Shown one piece after another: positions 5,562-10,955 of a DNA stretch of 64,000 nucleotides. A program made the translations under genes and the position numbers. Under the pieces are notes generated by a model. That model searched no databases. It was given only the letters and a program-made list of their open reading frames with translations, and had not been told where the DNA came from. The stretch lies in the NCBI RefSeq assembly GCF_027706745.1, contig NZ_JAQFWP010000014.1, forward strand, positions 62,001-126,000. Reading direction: 5' to 3'. Positions within the stretch are counted from its first letter, which is position 1, and each line of letters starts with the position of its first letter. This DNA comes from Nocardiopsis suaedae. Its GTDB lineage: Bacteria; Actinomycetota; Actinomycetes; Streptosporangiales; Streptosporangiaceae.

Positions 5562-6686
5562 TCAGACCGTGGGGGCGAGGCGCCAGCGTCGCCCGGAAGT
5601 GGGGGAGCCGTGCCAGACATACTGCTCATCAGGGGTCACGGTCACACCGAAGCTCGACCAGGACGGCCGCCCCTGTTCAACCCACCAGCGGTACGAGTCC
5701 TCCAGATCGCTCCAAAGACGCCTCGGACCGACCTGGGAGCAGGTGAACCCTTCCCCGTCTGACTCGGTGTCCACTTCGGCCCTTGAGCCGTCCCGGTCCT
5801 CGATCAGGAGCAACGCGGAACCGTCCTCCCTCAGGATCCGGGCGACTCGGCTGGTGCCGAGGACGAGCTGGGCAAGGAAGGCGGACTTCTGATCGTCGAA
5901 GACTTCTGCCCCGAGGAACGACGTGTGGGTGTCGCCCTCCTCCTCGTCGTCGATCTCGGCCTGCTCCGGCTGCGCCTCATGGCGCGCCGGAATGAACCCC
6001 GCCCAGTCGTCCAGAAACCTGCCCTCGGCTCCGTCCGGACCCGTGTGAAGCTTCAGCATCGCCCCGCCGGCCATGCCCGCCAGGTTCGTCAAGATGATGC
6101 CCCCGTCGTTCACCTGGCCCAGCCAGGCCGCAGGCACGAAGGGGAAGGCCGTGGTGCCGATGATCCGGTCGTAGGGAGCCGACTCCGGGTAGCCCTTGTG
6201 CCCGTCGAATGCCGCGGTGGTGGGGGCGTAGCCGAGCGACTTCAGGCGGGCCGTGGCCCTGGATACGAGCCTGGGGGATACGTCGATCGACGTCAGGTGC
6301 ACCGAGCCGATCAGGTGGCTGAGCACGGCCGGGTTGTAGCCCGACCCGGTCCCGATCTCCAAGACCCGGGTGGACTCGCTCAGGTCGAACGCTTCGATCA
6401 TCCGCGCGATCAGGCCGGGCATGGTCGAGGAGCTGGTCCATCGTCCCCTTCCCGTGCCTTCGGGAAGGGCTTCATCGAGGGGGAGTCCGTTGATCTCGAT
6501 GATCAGCGACTCGTTGGAGTAGACGTGCTTCTCCCACTCGTCGCGCTGATCCCGGTCGTCCCTCGACACCCTCCTGTACCGGGTTCCCGATGGAGTGTTC
6601 TCGTGGAGCGCGAACTCCGGCACGAGGACTCCACGATCGATGCTCTGAAGCGCGTCTTCCAGTGGGCTCCCTGCCTCCACCTCCAA
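5562..6686 (-). CDS. Isoaspartyl-methyltransferase-like RiPP O-methyltransferase (TgmC/aspartimide-forming type)
   Basis: A 374-residue SAM-dependent methyltransferase of the L-isoaspartyl/PCMT fold. The family segment TSSSTMPGLIARMIE (84-98) is followed by the SAM motif VLEIGTGSGYN (108-118) and by DGHKGYPESAPYDRII. The extra C-terminal domain with DSYRWWVEQGRPSW distinguishes it from housekeeping PCMT (about 210 residues) and is seen in methyltransferases of ATP-grasp peptide (tgm/graspetide) and aspartimidylated lasso clusters, where the enzyme methylates a peptide Asp that then closes to an aspartimide. The TTG at 6686 has AAGGGG 5 nt upstream and sits inside the end of the ATP-grasp relic, preserving the usual ligase-methyltransferase coupling. 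Codon use is less GC-rich than in neighbouring genes. Confidence 0.8.
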   Translation of the reverse strand: MEVEAGSPLEDALQSIDRGVLVPEFALHENTPSGTRYRRVSRDDRDQRDEWEKHVYSNESLIIEINGLPLDEALPEGTGRGRWTSSSTMPGLIARMIEAFDLSESTRVLEIGTGSGYNPAVLSHLIGSVHLTSIDVSPRLVSRATARLKSLGYAPTTAAFDGHKGYPESAPYDRIIGTTAFPFVPAAWLGQVNDGGIILTNLAGMAGGAMLKLHTGPDGAEGRFLDDWAGFIPARHEAQPEQAEIDDEEEGDTHTSFLGAEVFDDQKSAFLAQLVLGTSRVARILREDGSALLLIEDRDGSRAEVDTESDGEGFTCSQVGPRRLWSDLEDSYRWWVEQGRPSWSSFGVTVTPDEQYVWHGSPTSGRRWRLAPTV

Positions 6687-6688
6687 GA

Positions 6689-6919
6689 CAGCCCCTTCTC
6701 AAGCAGGTCACCGATCGACTCAACGATCGGAAGTTCACAATGGTCGGCCAGCCAAGCCCATTGGCCGTTGGGATTCAGCTCCAGGAACGTCCACTCCCCG
6801 CCGGGGGACACGACGAAGTCGGCGGCCCCGAAGACAAGACCGAAAGCGGACATGTAACGCCCCAGGGCGGCGGATACGCGCTCCGGGACTTCGACGACTT
6901 CGTAGCGGTGTGAGGAGCC
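6689..6919 (-). pseudogene. ATP-grasp peptide ligase, C-terminal relic (TgmB/MvdD type)
   Basis: Reading the minus strand from 6919 gives HRYEVVEVPERVSAALGRYM, then AFGLVFGAADFVVSPGGEW, then FLELNPNGQWAWLAD and ESIGDLLEKGL. The FLE-x-NPNGQ-W metal-binding segment is the signature end of ATP-grasp ligases that make ester/amide cross-links in graspetides. The roughly 220 N-terminal residues of a normal enzyme are absent: only 147 bp separate this segment from the GNAT gene, and they do not continue the homology. The frame also fails to stop at the usual place and runs on to 6503 in overlap with the methyltransferase. The gene is therefore broken at both ends. Confidence 0.7.
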
Positions 6920-7066
6920 ATGTCGGGGGAGCCGCCGTGCAGGGGCACCAGCGCGACCTACAGGATCGCCTCGTGCTCCTTAGTCCTGGGCGCCGGTGTC
7001 TTCCAGGTCCACGGCCACCAGCGGCGCCCGGGTCCACGGCCGGCCCTGCACAGCGTCCCTCTTTCC

Positions 7067-7582
7067 TCAGGCCTCAGTCATCCCGAGCCGTCCCAGGTCG
7101 AGGCGTTCGGCCCTGCGCGCGAGCAGGTAGAGGCGTCCCGCACTTCGCTCCTGCTCCTTGACCAGGGCGAATCCCTGAGTCCTGTAGTACGTGACCAGCT
7201 CGGGGAAGAAACACCCCCGCCGGACCCACGTGCGGCCCTGCCGCGCCGCCCGGTCCACCGCCCACAGCGCGATCAACGTCCCGGGCCTGTGCTCCCGATA
7301 GGCGGGATCGGTCACGGTCGTGAACAGGTACAGCGCAGGCTCCGCGGCCTCCTCGGGGGTCCAGTCCTTGGGGGGTGCCTGGTCCATGACGGTGGTGCAG
7401 CCGACGATGCGCCCGCCGTTTTCGAGGACCCACATGGTGCCGCTTCCGGCCTGTCCGGCGAGGTCTTCGACCTCCTCGCGCCAGGACTCCAGTCCGCGCC
7501 GTTCCTGCCAGTCGCAGCGCGCGGCGATCATCTTCGCGACGTCGGCGGTGTCGGCCGCGGTGGCGGGGCGCATGGTGAACAT
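7067..7582 (-). CDS. GNAT-family N-acetyltransferase of the RiPP cassette
   Basis: A 171-residue GNAT protein. MFTMRPATAADTADVAKMI is a typical beta1-alpha1 start, TMWVLENGGRIVGCTTVMDQ covers beta2-beta3, the acetyl-CoA region is YREHRPGTLIALWAVDRAA, and the C-terminal strand is in YYRTQGFALVKEQ. It acetylates an amine using acetyl-CoA. Its ATG lies 11 nt after the stop of the asparagine-synthetase-like gene, with GAGAGG before it, so the two are very probably co-translated. In albusnodin-type lasso clusters a GNAT acetylates a core lysine; the candidate precursor here has lysines at positions 35, 36, 45 and 51, fitting that role, though the substrate is inferred from context only. Confidence 0.8.
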   Translation of the reverse strand: MFTMRPATAADTADVAKMIAARCDWQERRGLESWREEVEDLAGQAGSGTMWVLENGGRIVGCTTVMDQAPPKDWTPEEAAEPALYLFTTVTDPAYREHRPGTLIALWAVDRAARQGRTWVRRGCFFPELVTYYRTQGFALVKEQERSAGRLYLLARRAERLDLGRLGMTEA

Positions 7583-7593
7583 GGCGTGTCCTC

Positions 7594-9174
7594 TCAACGG
7601 CCGAGGAACGCCTCGGCGCTCATGTGCAGGCTCAGCACTTCCAGGATCTTCCCGTCCCGCTCTTCGCTGTAGGCCCCCGTGGTCAGGTCCTCCACCGCCG
7701 AGCGCAGCCCGTCCGGGTCGACCAACCCGTCCTCGAACAGCGGCGACCCGTCGGCCAGCATACGAGCGAACAGGTCCGGCGCGTGGCTCGTCAGCGCGTG
7801 CTCGACGACCTCGGCGAAGGACTCCCGCTCGACCGGGTGTACGACGTCCTCGCTCATGCCCAGCGACGCCAGGCGCCGCCGCTGCACCTGTTTCAACTCG
7901 CGCCAGGCGAACGGCAACTGCTCGCCGAGCTCGACCATCGCGGGGTCGGCGAACGGGTGCACCGGCCACAGCCCCTCCCGCAGCAGGATCGGCGCGGTGG
8001 TCTCCAACGACAGCAGCGTCATGGAGTTCACCCGCGCAGGGGGCGCGATCCCGTCGTCGGCGGACTCCAGCACCTCCCGTGCGCGCGGCCCGACCCAGGG
8101 CAGGATCAGGGCGTCGCCGATGTTTCCGGGCCCCTCGTGCGGCTCTTCGTCCTGGGTGAGGGCGACCATCTCGTCGCCGCCGAGGCCGGTCACGACCGTG
8201 CGGGCGCCGGCCTGGGCGACCGCACGCGCCATCACGGTGAACGGGTGGTGCAAGGGGTCCTCCGTCGGCGAGACCACGTCCCCGGCGCCCCACCGGCACC
8301 CGGGCGCCAACGGCGGATACTCCATGGCGTCGATGACGAGATCAGGGTCGGCGAACCGCACGCGCCTACGCATCTCGGCGCGGCGCCGGATCTGCTGCTT
8401 TCGCCCCGGCCCACCGATCAGCAGGGTCGCCGTGGGGAAAAGGCCGGGGTACCGCTCGGCCGCGCGGGTGGCCACAGTGCCCGAGTCGAACCCGCCGGTC
8501 AGGTGGAACAGGGTGGTGGACTCGGCCCAGGGGCGCCGGTCCAGCGCCGCGTCCATGGTCGCCATGAACGCCCCCACGACGTCGGCGTCCGGTGCCAGCC
8601 GACGAGGGGTCCGGTGTAAGGCGGGCTCGGGGTAGCTGATCCACAGGGCCCCGCCGAAGTGCGCGACGGCGCGCTCGGTGAGCCGGTGCACCCCCTTGAA
8701 CAGGGTGTCGGTGCTGTAGCGGGGCCGATAGATCAGCAGGCGGGCCGCCTCTTTCGGGTTGATCCCGGTGATGTGCTCGCGCAAGTCCGCCATGTCCCAG
8801 GACCCGACCAGGGACGTGCCGTCGGTGGCCAGATACAAGGGGGTCGTCCGGGCCGAGCCAGCGGTGACGCGCACCGGCTGGTCGGGCTCGGTCTCAACGA
8901 GCACGAAGTCGGTCGGCCAACCGGCGGCGGCGTCGCGCGCCTGGTCGTACTCGGCGCGGGTGACGTGGCGGACGCCGGGGGAACAGGCCGGGCGGTCCGC
9001 GACGCGCTCACGGACCATGAGCAGGGTCCGGCGCCCGTCCGTGGCGGCCAGGTGCTCGACCATCGGGTGGTCGACGGGGGTCAACCGGCTGTGCTGGTCG
9101 AGCGTGCTGAAGCACGCCCCGGACCAGGTCCACGCCGGGTTTTCGCTGTAGGGGGTCAACCTGATGCGCAACAT
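7594..9174 (-). CDS. Asparagine-synthetase-like macrolactam cyclase (lasso peptide C-protein type)
   Basis: A 526-residue asparagine-synthetase-fold protein. The ATP-pyrophosphatase loop is LTGGFDSGT (225-233), with Thr in place of the first Ser of the usual SGGxDS, and the later TGLGGDEMV (329-337) matches the G-GGDE element of lasso cyclases and AsnB. The N-terminus (MLRIRLTPYSE) has no Cys at position 2, so it cannot be a glutamine-hydrolysing AsnB; this fits a cyclase that adenylates a peptide carboxylate. It starts 42 bp after a 52-codon peptide gene and is coupled to a GNAT, an arrangement known from albusnodin-type lasso clusters. No leader-binding RRE protein or transglutaminase-like leader protease is visible nearby. 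GGAG precedes the ATG. Confidence 0.8.
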   Translation of the reverse strand: MLRIRLTPYSENPAWTWSGACFSTLDQHSRLTPVDHPMVEHLAATDGRRTLLMVRERVADRPACSPGVRHVTRAEYDQARDAAAGWPTDFVLVETEPDQPVRVTAGSARTTPLYLATDGTSLVGSWDMADLREHITGINPKEAARLLIYRPRYSTDTLFKGVHRLTERAVAHFGGALWISYPEPALHRTPRRLAPDADVVGAFMATMDAALDRRPWAESTTLFHLTGGFDSGTVATRAAERYPGLFPTATLLIGGPGRKQQIRRRAEMRRRVRFADPDLVIDAMEYPPLAPGCRWGAGDVVSPTEDPLHHPFTVMARAVAQAGARTVVTGLGGDEMVALTQDEEPHEGPGNIGDALILPWVGPRAREVLESADDGIAPPARVNSMTLLSLETTAPILLREGLWPVHPFADPAMVELGEQLPFAWRELKQVQRRRLASLGMSEDVVHPVERESFAEVVEHALTSHAPDLFARMLADGSPLFEDGLVDPDGLRSAVEDLTTGAYSEERDGKILEVLSLHMSAEAFLGR

Positions 9175-9216
9175 GGAGGGCTCCGGGGCGTGCGTCGGGT
9201 TCAGCGCTTCAGGTGG

Positions 9217-9375
9217 TCAGCGCTTCATGGTGTCGTAGGTCTTGGCGCCGTCGGAGGAGCCCGACGACTTCTTGTACTCGTGGCTCTGCTCGGCGCTCTG
9301 GATCACCGAGCGGGCGGCCGTGGCGAACAGGTCGACCGCTGGCGCGGTGTCGGGCGGGGGCGTGAAGTCGGGCAA
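9217..9375 (-). CDS. Candidate RiPP precursor peptide, 52 residues
   Basis: A short gene with a strong AGGAGGGACG ribosome site directly before a TTG start at 9375. The product begins MPDFTPPPDTAPAVDLF, a proline-rich then helical leader-like part, and ends in a polar stretch with SHEYKKSSGSS (31-41) followed by DGAKTYDTMKR (42-52). It sits immediately upstream of the cyclase and GNAT genes in the same direction. The tail has acidic residues E33, D42 and D48 for ring closure, four lysines for acetylation, and Asp-Gly (42-43) and Asp-Thr (48-49) pairs, the dipeptides at which aspartimides form in related RiPPs. I cannot place the leader/core boundary. The 11-bp sequence TGAAGCGCTGA at its end is repeated 6 bp downstream. 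Confidence 0.65.
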   Translation of the reverse strand: MPDFTPPPDTAPAVDLFATAARSVIQSAEQSHEYKKSSGSSDGAKTYDTMKR

Positions 9376-9496: not shown

Positions 9497-10696
9497 TTAG
9501 GAGCCGCGCGGGTGGTCACGGGCTTTGGGCGACTCGGCGCGGCGGTAGTACCGGTGGGCGTGGTGGCGGTGGGCGGCCGTGCCGTTCGCGTCGCCGCTGT
9601 CGGTGGCGAGGTCGGCGAGCAGGGTGTAGGCGTCTCCGGCGACCTCCCATGCGCCGATCTGGTGGGCGTGGTCGGCGGCCCGCATGGCGGCCTCCTCGGC
9701 GGCCGATGTGGAGCCCGCGGACATGTGGGTGGCGGCGATGAGGTAGCGGGTGCGGGCGACCATGTACTCGTCGGCCCGGTGGTGGTGCCACGCGAGGACC
9801 TGCCCCAGCTCTTCGAGGGCGTCGCCGGGGCGGCCGAGCTGCCGGTAGCACTCCGCCAGGTGGCGCCGCATGACGATCTGCCCGCGCTCCCGGTCGAGCT
9901 GGTCCCACTTGGCCAGGCCGTGCAGGTAGAAGGTCTCGGCGAGGGCGGGCCGCGCCCGGTCCAAGGCGATGCTGCCCAGCGTTTCCAGGCACGAGGCGGC
10001 TTCGGCGTCCTGCCCGGCTGCGACGGCGTCCTCGTAGGCGTCCGTCGCTATGTCTTCGGCCTGGTCAACGTCGCCCATGACCACGAGCCCCGATGCGTGG
10101 GCGCGTGCCATCTTCACCGCCGATGCCGTGTTCCCGGTGTCGTGGGCGGCGCGGGCGGCGGTCTCGTACACCCGCACCCAGGTGGTGGGGTGGCGCCGGT
10201 GGATCAGCCATGCCCACATGGCCTCGGCGAGGTGCCAGCACTGGCTGTTGAGTCCGAGGCGGCGGGCGTGGTCCACCACCTCGGGGAGCGTGGGGCGCCG
10301 GTGGTCGAACCACTCCAGCGCCTCGGGGCGTGTGGGGGCGGGGCCGGGGTGCGGGTGCTGGTAGTGCGGGGACAGTACCGGCCGGTGGGGGTTCAGGACC
10401 CTGTCGTGGCGGGCGGCCCGCTGGGCGTAGTCATCGAGGACCCGGCCGAACACGGCGCGTTCATCGTCGCGGTCGAGGCCGCTTCGCGCCTGCTCGTATA
10501 CCTCCGGGCGGGTGAACATCCACCGCCCGTGGTCAAGTCGGTCGAGGGTGGACAAAGCTGTGAGCAGGTCCAGGGCCTCTGAGGCGTCGTCGAACCCGAT
10601 GCCGAGGGCGGCTGCGGCGGTGTGCCCGTCGAACGGGGTGTGCGGGTGGGCGGCCAGGCAGGTGAGCTGGGCGTGCTGCTCGGGGGTGAGATCCAT
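9497..10696 (-). CDS. Tetratricopeptide-repeat protein with N-terminal winged-helix-like domain
   Basis: A 399-residue protein. The start MDLTPEQHAQLTCLAAHPHT resembles the small winged-helix segment that follows the NTPase in AfsR/NB-ARC regulators, but no NTPase motif is present. From about residue 140 on there are successive helical TPR-like repeats rich in Ala, for example RRHLAECYRQLGRPGDALEE and AAMRAADHAHQIGAWEVAGD. Such proteins act as peptide- or partner-binding scaffolds or regulators. It lies 121 bp upstream of the precursor peptide gene in the same direction, so it may be the regulator or a handling factor of the cassette, or may belong to the XRE-associated genes upstream. The ATG at 10696 has only a weak ribosome site. 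Confidence 0.65.
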   Translation of the reverse strand: MDLTPEQHAQLTCLAAHPHTPFDGHTAAAALGIGFDDASEALDLLTALSTLDRLDHGRWMFTRPEVYEQARSGLDRDDERAVFGRVLDDYAQRAARHDRVLNPHRPVLSPHYQHPHPGPAPTRPEALEWFDHRRPTLPEVVDHARRLGLNSQCWHLAEAMWAWLIHRRHPTTWVRVYETAARAAHDTGNTASAVKMARAHASGLVVMGDVDQAEDIATDAYEDAVAAGQDAEAASCLETLGSIALDRARPALAETFYLHGLAKWDQLDRERGQIVMRRHLAECYRQLGRPGDALEELGQVLAWHHHRADEYMVARTRYLIAATHMSAGSTSAAEEAAMRAADHAHQIGAWEVAGDAYTLLADLATDSGDANGTAAHRHHAHRYYRRAESPKARDHPRGS

Positions 10697-10736
10697 GCGG
10701 GAGCTTTCTAGAGGTAGTGGCGGCGTGCGGGGCGGC

Positions 10737-10955
10737 CTATCGGTTTCCGAGCGGTGAGGAGCCCGGCACTCTGCGGGGAAGGGGCGGCCGGGTCGCTGGT
10801 GCGGGAGCCGGGGCGGGGTTGCGCCGGGGTGCCGTGAGCCGCGCCAGCTCCTCTGCCGCCCCCCGGACGGCAGAGGAAGGCGGGCGGGTGGGTTCGTTCG
10901 GGCACGCTGTGTGGGGTTTGGGCACCACGTGCCCACACCAGTGGCACCACTTCAC
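10737..10955 (-). CDS. Small CxxC zinc-ribbon-like protein
   Basis: A 72-residue product starting at GTG 10955, two bases after the stop of the upstream gene. It begins MKWCHWCGHVVPKPHTACP, where Cys4, Cys7 and Cys18 plus nearby His residues could bind zinc; the rest is proline/arginine-rich and probably disordered. Similar short CxxC proteins accompany XRE/DUF397 loci in actinomycetes. No function is known. The evidence is the Cys motif, the tight coupling and consistent frame use; no good ribosome site is visible, so confidence is modest. Confidence 0.45.
   Translation of the reverse strand: MKWCHWCGHVVPKPHTACPNEPTRPPSSAVRGAAEELARLTAPRRNPAPAPAPATRPPLPRRVPGSSPLGNR

Follow-up and report, generated by a model that had tools for sequence, protein, structure and literature searches.

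A conserved pair of precursor peptide and glutaminase-dead AsnB-family enzyme with an invariant Lys-x5-Asp motif, a candidate route to a Lys-Asp macrolactam

In the stretch of DNA analysed here, 64,000 nucleotides of the Nocardiopsis suaedae genome (the window), a small precursor peptide gene is located directly upstream of a gene for an AsnB-family enzyme, and this pair is conserved in both Actinomycetota and Proteobacteria. Among the precursors, only a Lys-x5-Asp motif followed by a short tail is invariant. We assign a probability of about 0.6 to the reading that the cassette makes a RiPP with a single Lys-Asp side-chain macrolactam, which would be closed with no leader cleavage and then be acted upon by a lineage-specific partner.

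The three genes of the window cassette are all on the minus strand. The precursor gene (9217..9375) encodes 52 aa, read from the window as MPDFTPPPDTAPAVDLFATAARSVIQSAEQSHEYKKSSGSSDGAKTYDTMKR; it starts with TTG at 9375, its stop ends at 9217, and a strong ribosome site, AGGAGGGACG, is found directly 5' of the TTG. A gap of 42 nt separates the precursor stop from the start of the enzyme gene (526 aa, 7594..9174, ATG at 9174 and stop at 7594), the product of which is a proposed Lys-Asp macrolactam synthetase with Leu as residue 2, i.e., without the glutaminase Cys. The GNAT acetyltransferase gene (171 aa, 7067..7582, ATG at 7582 and stop at 7067, with matches to PF13480 and PF00583) starts 11 nt past the end of the enzyme gene. 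A preliminary description of this DNA had reported the same arrangement, i.e., a short gene with a very good ribosome site, an AsnB-like protein lacking the glutaminase Cys and a GNAT 11 nt behind it, and had taken it for a RiPP cassette with no leader-processing genes nearby; all of this holds, and the cassette is conserved. According to the alignment of relatives, residues 1–35 of the precursor are leader-like and residues 36–52 core-like. Motif and tail read KSSGSSD-GAKTYDTMKR in the window. Lys36 (codon 9268..9270), the proposed amine donor, is invariant both in the near-clade alignment and in all independent peptide clades compared, and the equally invariant Asp42 six residues further on (codon 9250..9252), the proposed activated acid, is not replaced by Glu in any peptide of the set.

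A scan of genome contigs gave 22 loci with the enzyme, in Nocardiopsis, Streptomyces, and Frankia. In the nearest clade the peptide frame lies 43–78 nt upstream of the enzyme at all 17 loci with a complete upstream region, and the second half of the aligned peptides is nearly invariant (EYKKxxGSSDxxxTYDT). Pooled over the last 20 peptide codons pS is 0.42 and pN 0.18, which indicates purifying selection on the C-terminal codons of the peptide. The precursor reading frame is real and not a product of chance. The GNAT adjoins the enzyme in all near relatives, in inverted orientation at two loci (L015 and L019), and besides these two no gene is consistently kept within 7 kb at the nearest-clade loci. 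The suggestion that peptide, cyclase and GNAT might recur together in relatives is thus borne out by a triplet in every near relative, and homologues of the peptide are clearly conserved beside the cyclase. Among 395 Streptomycetaceae genomes, 29 encode the cassette enzyme, and among 395 genomes drawn from the class Actinomycetes, 12 do. More divergent homologues are located on Streptomyces plasmids, in a second order of Actinomycetes, and in Rhizobium, Bradyrhizobium, Mesorhizobium, and Xanthomonas sacchari, the Proteobacteria side of the survey consisting of plasmid records; each has its own small upstream gene, and the peptide sequences are otherwise dissimilar. Two cassettes with an intact peptide carry a probable lesion in the enzyme gene, a frameshift in N. 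kunsanensis (L008) and an in-frame TGA in a Streptomycetaceae genome (L040 in G270) that also has an intact second cassette.

The Lys-x5-Asp motif had not been pointed out in the preliminary description and was found here by comparing the divergent peptides. Together with a tail of 6–10 residues it is present in 13 of 13 independent peptide clades. These span Actinomycetota, rhizobia, and Xanthomonas, and their enzymes are as little as 21% identical. Its versions are KSSGSSD (window), KIPGSSD, KEEGDSD, KVDGDSD, KFSGNSD, KPAGTED, KAAETSD, KMPGGGD, KGGKPGD, KAPFPND, KVRLPGD, KPYLGDD, and KFLVRGD. In 2000 shuffles of the same residues K-x5-D was present in 1.8 clades on average and in 7 at most, against 13 real clades; the next best real motif was found in 8 of the 13, and the best of any motif in the shuffles in 10. 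Some of the divergent peptides, which are conserved in sister species, had been chosen with knowledge of the motif. A blind test was therefore also run, in which an ORF ending in K-x5-D-x(4-10)-stop was located just upstream of the enzyme at 61 of 64 loci compared to 13 of 699 (1.9%) other long-ORF starts in the same DNA. Three loci were missed. L049 has the motif with a longer tail, L069 is apparently a relic with no visible peptide upstream of the enzyme, and at L058 the gene upstream of the enzyme encodes an ACP extended by a leader-like segment instead of a Lys-x5-Asp peptide. Actinobacterial precursors have a further motif in their N-terminal part, [D/E]-[L/V]-F-x-[T/G].

The window enzyme is a member of the Asn_synthase superfamily (PF00733, 31.7 bits with a gathering cut-off of 21); its PPi loop TGGFDSG and GGDE motif are intact. 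Among 17 diverse members aligned, down to 21% identity, the GGxDS loop, the GGD motif and a C-terminal Glu are kept, and residue 2 is the glutaminase Cys in none of the 17. The lack of this Cys, which would supply ammonia, speaks against the idea that the enzyme activates Asp or the C-terminus for another nucleophile, be it ammonia or a small amine (amidation), an acyl carrier or a partner molecule, and that Lys serves for recognition only. The exact Lys-Asp spacing held across phyla also argues against it. In its favor, AsnB-like enzymes do amidate or nitrilate peptide C-termini (PMC13060819), and the enzyme at L058 is paired with an ACP that bears a leader-like motif but no Lys-x5-Asp. On balance we consider it improbable. 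With L058 and L069 lacking a motif peptide, the enzyme clade may nevertheless hold other reactions. At L058 and L145 the leader-like motif of the C-terminal ACP extension reads EGVFAGEPVLAVPALADRY, the enzyme-ACP pair is located near two ABC transporters, and the same recruiting tag has possibly been put to use on a carrier protein.

The AF2 model of the window enzyme (pLDDT 86.6, pTM 0.89) has full-length matches to TsnB9, AsnB, carbapenam synthetase and beta-lactam synthetase (Z 18–21). The best PDB sequence match is 1jgt, which is distant; a lasso cyclase is absent among the PDB matches listed, and this has no bearing on fold relations. Besides the cassette enzymes, the ML tree took in lasso cyclases, identified through a neighbouring B2 gene, and AsnB from six genomes. 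All 20 cassette enzymes group together (99/98), as do nine lasso cyclases (99/99) and the AsnB proteins (98/99), each in a separate clade; the lasso cyclase L135 has a very long branch and an unsure place in the tree. The cassette enzymes are thus a clade of their own. Grouping with beta-lactam or primary AsnB enzymes had been named beforehand as a sign against a peptide cyclase, and in this tree, with beta-lactam synthetases outside it, no grouping with AsnB is found.

The preliminary description went on to read the cassette as one for an albusnodin-type acetylated lasso peptide, and this part finds no support. The search against the albusnodin/ikarugamycin cyclase profile that it proposed gave 28.5 bits for the window enzyme, far below the curated cut-off of 300 (NF033561, NCBIfam), the enzyme lies outside the lasso clade, and a lasso leader/core junction is absent from the peptides of the 13 independent clades compared. 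B1 and B2, said to be unrecognisable near the cassette, are indeed not found there with the PF13471 and PqqD (PF05402) profiles, and the only matches to either in this genome belong to a canonical lasso cluster elsewhere, which has its own cyclase, RRE and B2, lies on a different contig (G000 contig C3; L001, L120) and accounts for the B1/B2 of the genome. No PqqD-like match is located near any of these cassettes with PF05402, a profile that may miss divergent RREs. This canonical cluster, together with the GNAT, would allow for an acetylated lasso peptide of the albusnodin type, with processing in trans by the genome's own B1/B2. Genome data contradict this: 13 of the 34 genomes with a cassette, each at least 99% complete and among them single-contig genomes and one with a window-type cassette (G089), have no PF13471 (B2) protein at all, and 14 of the 34 have no PqqD/RRE match (PF05402), 9 of these also being without B2. 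Given also the NF033561 score and the lack of lasso leader features, processing in trans by canonical B1/B2 is highly improbable. Nor is the TPR product (9497–10936, minus strand) a likely stand-in processor, as had been suggested, since its gene is not conserved with the cassette; for the same reason it was rejected as a cassette member. It has weak similarity to HaaT (cyclophane RiPP TPR protein, NF041717) and to AfsR.

A lasso-like ring might still arise if an unlinked protease were to cleave directly ahead of the invariant Lys; the enzyme would then link the alpha-amine of this Lys1 to Asp7, and the GNAT would cap the side chain of Lys1, as happens in albusnodin and triculamin. Lasso maturation requires the B2 peptidase and joins the N-terminal amine to Asp or Glu at position 7–9, normally with Thr(-2) (PMC10368454), and Asp at position 7 is within this range. 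The enzyme superfamily is the same, and a 7-residue ring with a short tail of 6–10 residues, often with an aromatic residue after the ring, resembles a lasso peptide. Lys acetylation is known from lasso peptides and has been shown to serve self-resistance in the case of triculamin and lariocidin (PMC13352647), and the L037 core has the invariant Lys only, which would suit its acetylation with the ring closed via the alpha-amine. On the other hand, lasso cores begin with Gly, Cys, Ser or Ala, in one case with Asn (PMC12670498), whereas Lys occupies the corresponding position, six residues ahead of the acid, in 13 of 13 clades. The residues ahead of this Lys vary, with Thr(-2) in 1 of the 13. 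B2 is, as described above, missing from 13 of 34 genomes and the enzyme is outside the lasso clade. A ring through the alpha-amine would further have 22 atoms, fewer than in any lasso ring known to us. Cleavage before Lys with a lasso-like ring is the main rival reading, although an unlikely one. Streptomyces triculaminicus bears a cassette (L010); a link to triculamin was considered and rejected, the triculamin core (PMC13192320) being unrelated to the L010 peptide.

We favor a side-chain lactam over a lasso-like ring on the basis of the invariance of the motif, the missing proteases and the phylogeny, which together make it the more probable structure. Probably, the precursor is bound by the enzyme through its N-terminal part, perhaps at the catalytically dead Ntn domain, and Asp42 is adenylated at its beta-carboxylate, in the way that AsnB activates free Asp. 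Ammonia would then be replaced as nucleophile by the epsilon-amine of Lys36, the attack of which would result in a 7-residue (26-atom) Lys-Asp isopeptide ring and a loss of 18 Da, with the ring closed on the uncleaved precursor. As a free N-terminus would not be needed, this proposal would explain why no pair of RRE and leader peptidase is encoded. In the window lineage the GNAT may then acetylate the peptide, either to protect the producer or to complete the product, which is the weakest step of the proposal; trimming, if any, would be left to a housekeeping protease. The Lys-Asp bond is inferred from several features of the sequences. The acid is always Asp and never Glu, which fits AsnB chemistry. 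Lys is invariant also in the clades with no nearby GNAT (the ABC, methyltransferase and R. leguminosarum clades) and is thus not kept merely as an acetylation site, for which reason a role as mere GNAT substrate was rejected. That it is kept although a lasso ring needs no side chain at position 1 counts for the side-chain reading, and so do the modelled AsnB-like two-domain fold and the clade apart from lasso cyclases.

The second gene of the cassette varies by clade. It is the GNAT in the window-like clades, an ABC protein in the clade with the peptide tail QGRFED, a SAM methyltransferase in the KMPGGGDNNGDHCSK-type clade, and an APH-fold kinase, in some cases accompanied by an unrelated GNAT, in Mesorhizobium and some Rhizobium and Bradyrhizobium. 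On the plasmids of L044, L047, L049, L084, and L085 the kinase comes after the pair, often with a GNAT unrelated to that of the window; an APH-fold kinase and a GNAT beside one small peptide are two potential self-resistance enzymes. The R. leguminosarum pair, with a 52-aa peptide containing KGGKPGD, has none of GNAT, ABC protein, methyltransferase or kinase alongside and follows an acyl-homoserine-lactone synthase gene on the plasmids. At L041, L048, and L050 (Rhizobium plasmids) a peptide-enzyme pair is directly downstream of such a synthase gene, and at the latter two it is also next to nif genes. For R. johnstonii 3841 and Rhizobium sp. SU303 the annotation gives a shorter enzyme gene. A study of the quorum-sensing context describes rhiI-rhiABCD-rhiR, with asparagine synthase unmentioned (PMC13133039).

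Directly past the GNAT, the window contains the remnant of a graspetide-type cluster (5562–7060, minus strand) that is not conserved with the cassette. It consists of a broken ATP-grasp gene, the C-terminal part of which matches TIGR04187, and an intact-looking PIMT-like methyltransferase that scores 359.5 bits, just below the cut-off of 380, with the model for the 'ATP-grasp peptide maturase system methyltransferase' (TIGR04188). The methyltransferase (5562–6686) was not accepted as a cassette member since it is not conserved with it. A defence-system reading was also dropped, as PADLOC gave no match to the enzyme, the GNAT or the TPR protein.

The known roles of AsnB-like enzymes on ribosomal peptides are those of lasso cyclases, which need B1/B2, and of enzymes that amidate or nitrilate C-termini; a protease-independent Lys-Asp cyclase would, if the reading is true, add a third chemistry. 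With only two genes, it would also offer a simple means of stapling peptides at a K-x5-D tag. A rule would be at hand for mining genomes for products that lasso or RRE searches miss, and the quorum-sensing rhiI neighbourhood of Rhizobium symbiotic plasmids would gain a candidate product. About 300 RiPP-linked AsnB-like enzymes are uncharacterised and might form lactams (2026 preprint, PMC13060819), and a description of the present family was not found in the open literature, subscription papers being outside the search. We regard it as a variant of RiPP macrolactam biosynthesis, and probably as a class of its own if the bond is confirmed. The odds are about even that it represents an undescribed RiPP class, in which a stand-alone glutaminase-dead AsnB homologue makes a Lys-Asp macrolactam on an uncleaved precursor, spread over Actinomycetota, rhizobial symbiosis plasmids, and Xanthomonas and with interchangeable second-step genes.

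Several known systems share parts of this arrangement. Albusnodin, triculamin, and lariocidin have the short precursor, the AsnB-family cyclase and the GNAT in common with it. Their clusters differ in that B genes are present for lariocidin (LrcB1B2, PMC11451635) and albusnodin (albB, PMC9266682) and absent near this cassette, their rings close on the N-terminal alpha-amine, the triculamin core SKKSKPGDGIRGKGVRG (PMC13192320) is unlike the cores of the present cassettes, and the cassette enzyme is in another clade than lasso cyclases. Beta-lactam and carbapenam synthetases share the fold, adenylation, intramolecular lactam closure and a dead glutaminase domain, but at roughly 20% identity or less, and they form four- or five-membered rings on small-molecule substrates. 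TsrC, ScdTA, and PesC are likewise AsnB-family enzymes that act on ribosomal peptides; they amidate or nitrilate C-termini, PesC with glutamine or ammonia as nitrogen source (PMC13060819), whereas in the cassette an internal Lys-Asp pair is invariant and the glutaminase Cys is gone. Graspetides with Lys-Asp isopeptides such as corallotide share a leader-bearing precursor, the lack of B1/B2 and the proposed side-chain bond, for which the KxxxD repeats of corallotide, with Lys-Asp isopeptides made by an ATP-grasp enzyme, are a precedent (PMC13097080). The cassette spacing is instead i,i+6 with one ring, and an acyl-adenylate is expected from its AsnB-family enzyme as opposed to the acyl phosphate of the ATP-grasp ligases, of which no intact copy is found in the cassette and only the broken remnant near that of the window. 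The graspetide-like feature of a Lys donor and an Asp acceptor at fixed spacing is present in all 13 clades, and the bond between them would be the same as in corallotide.
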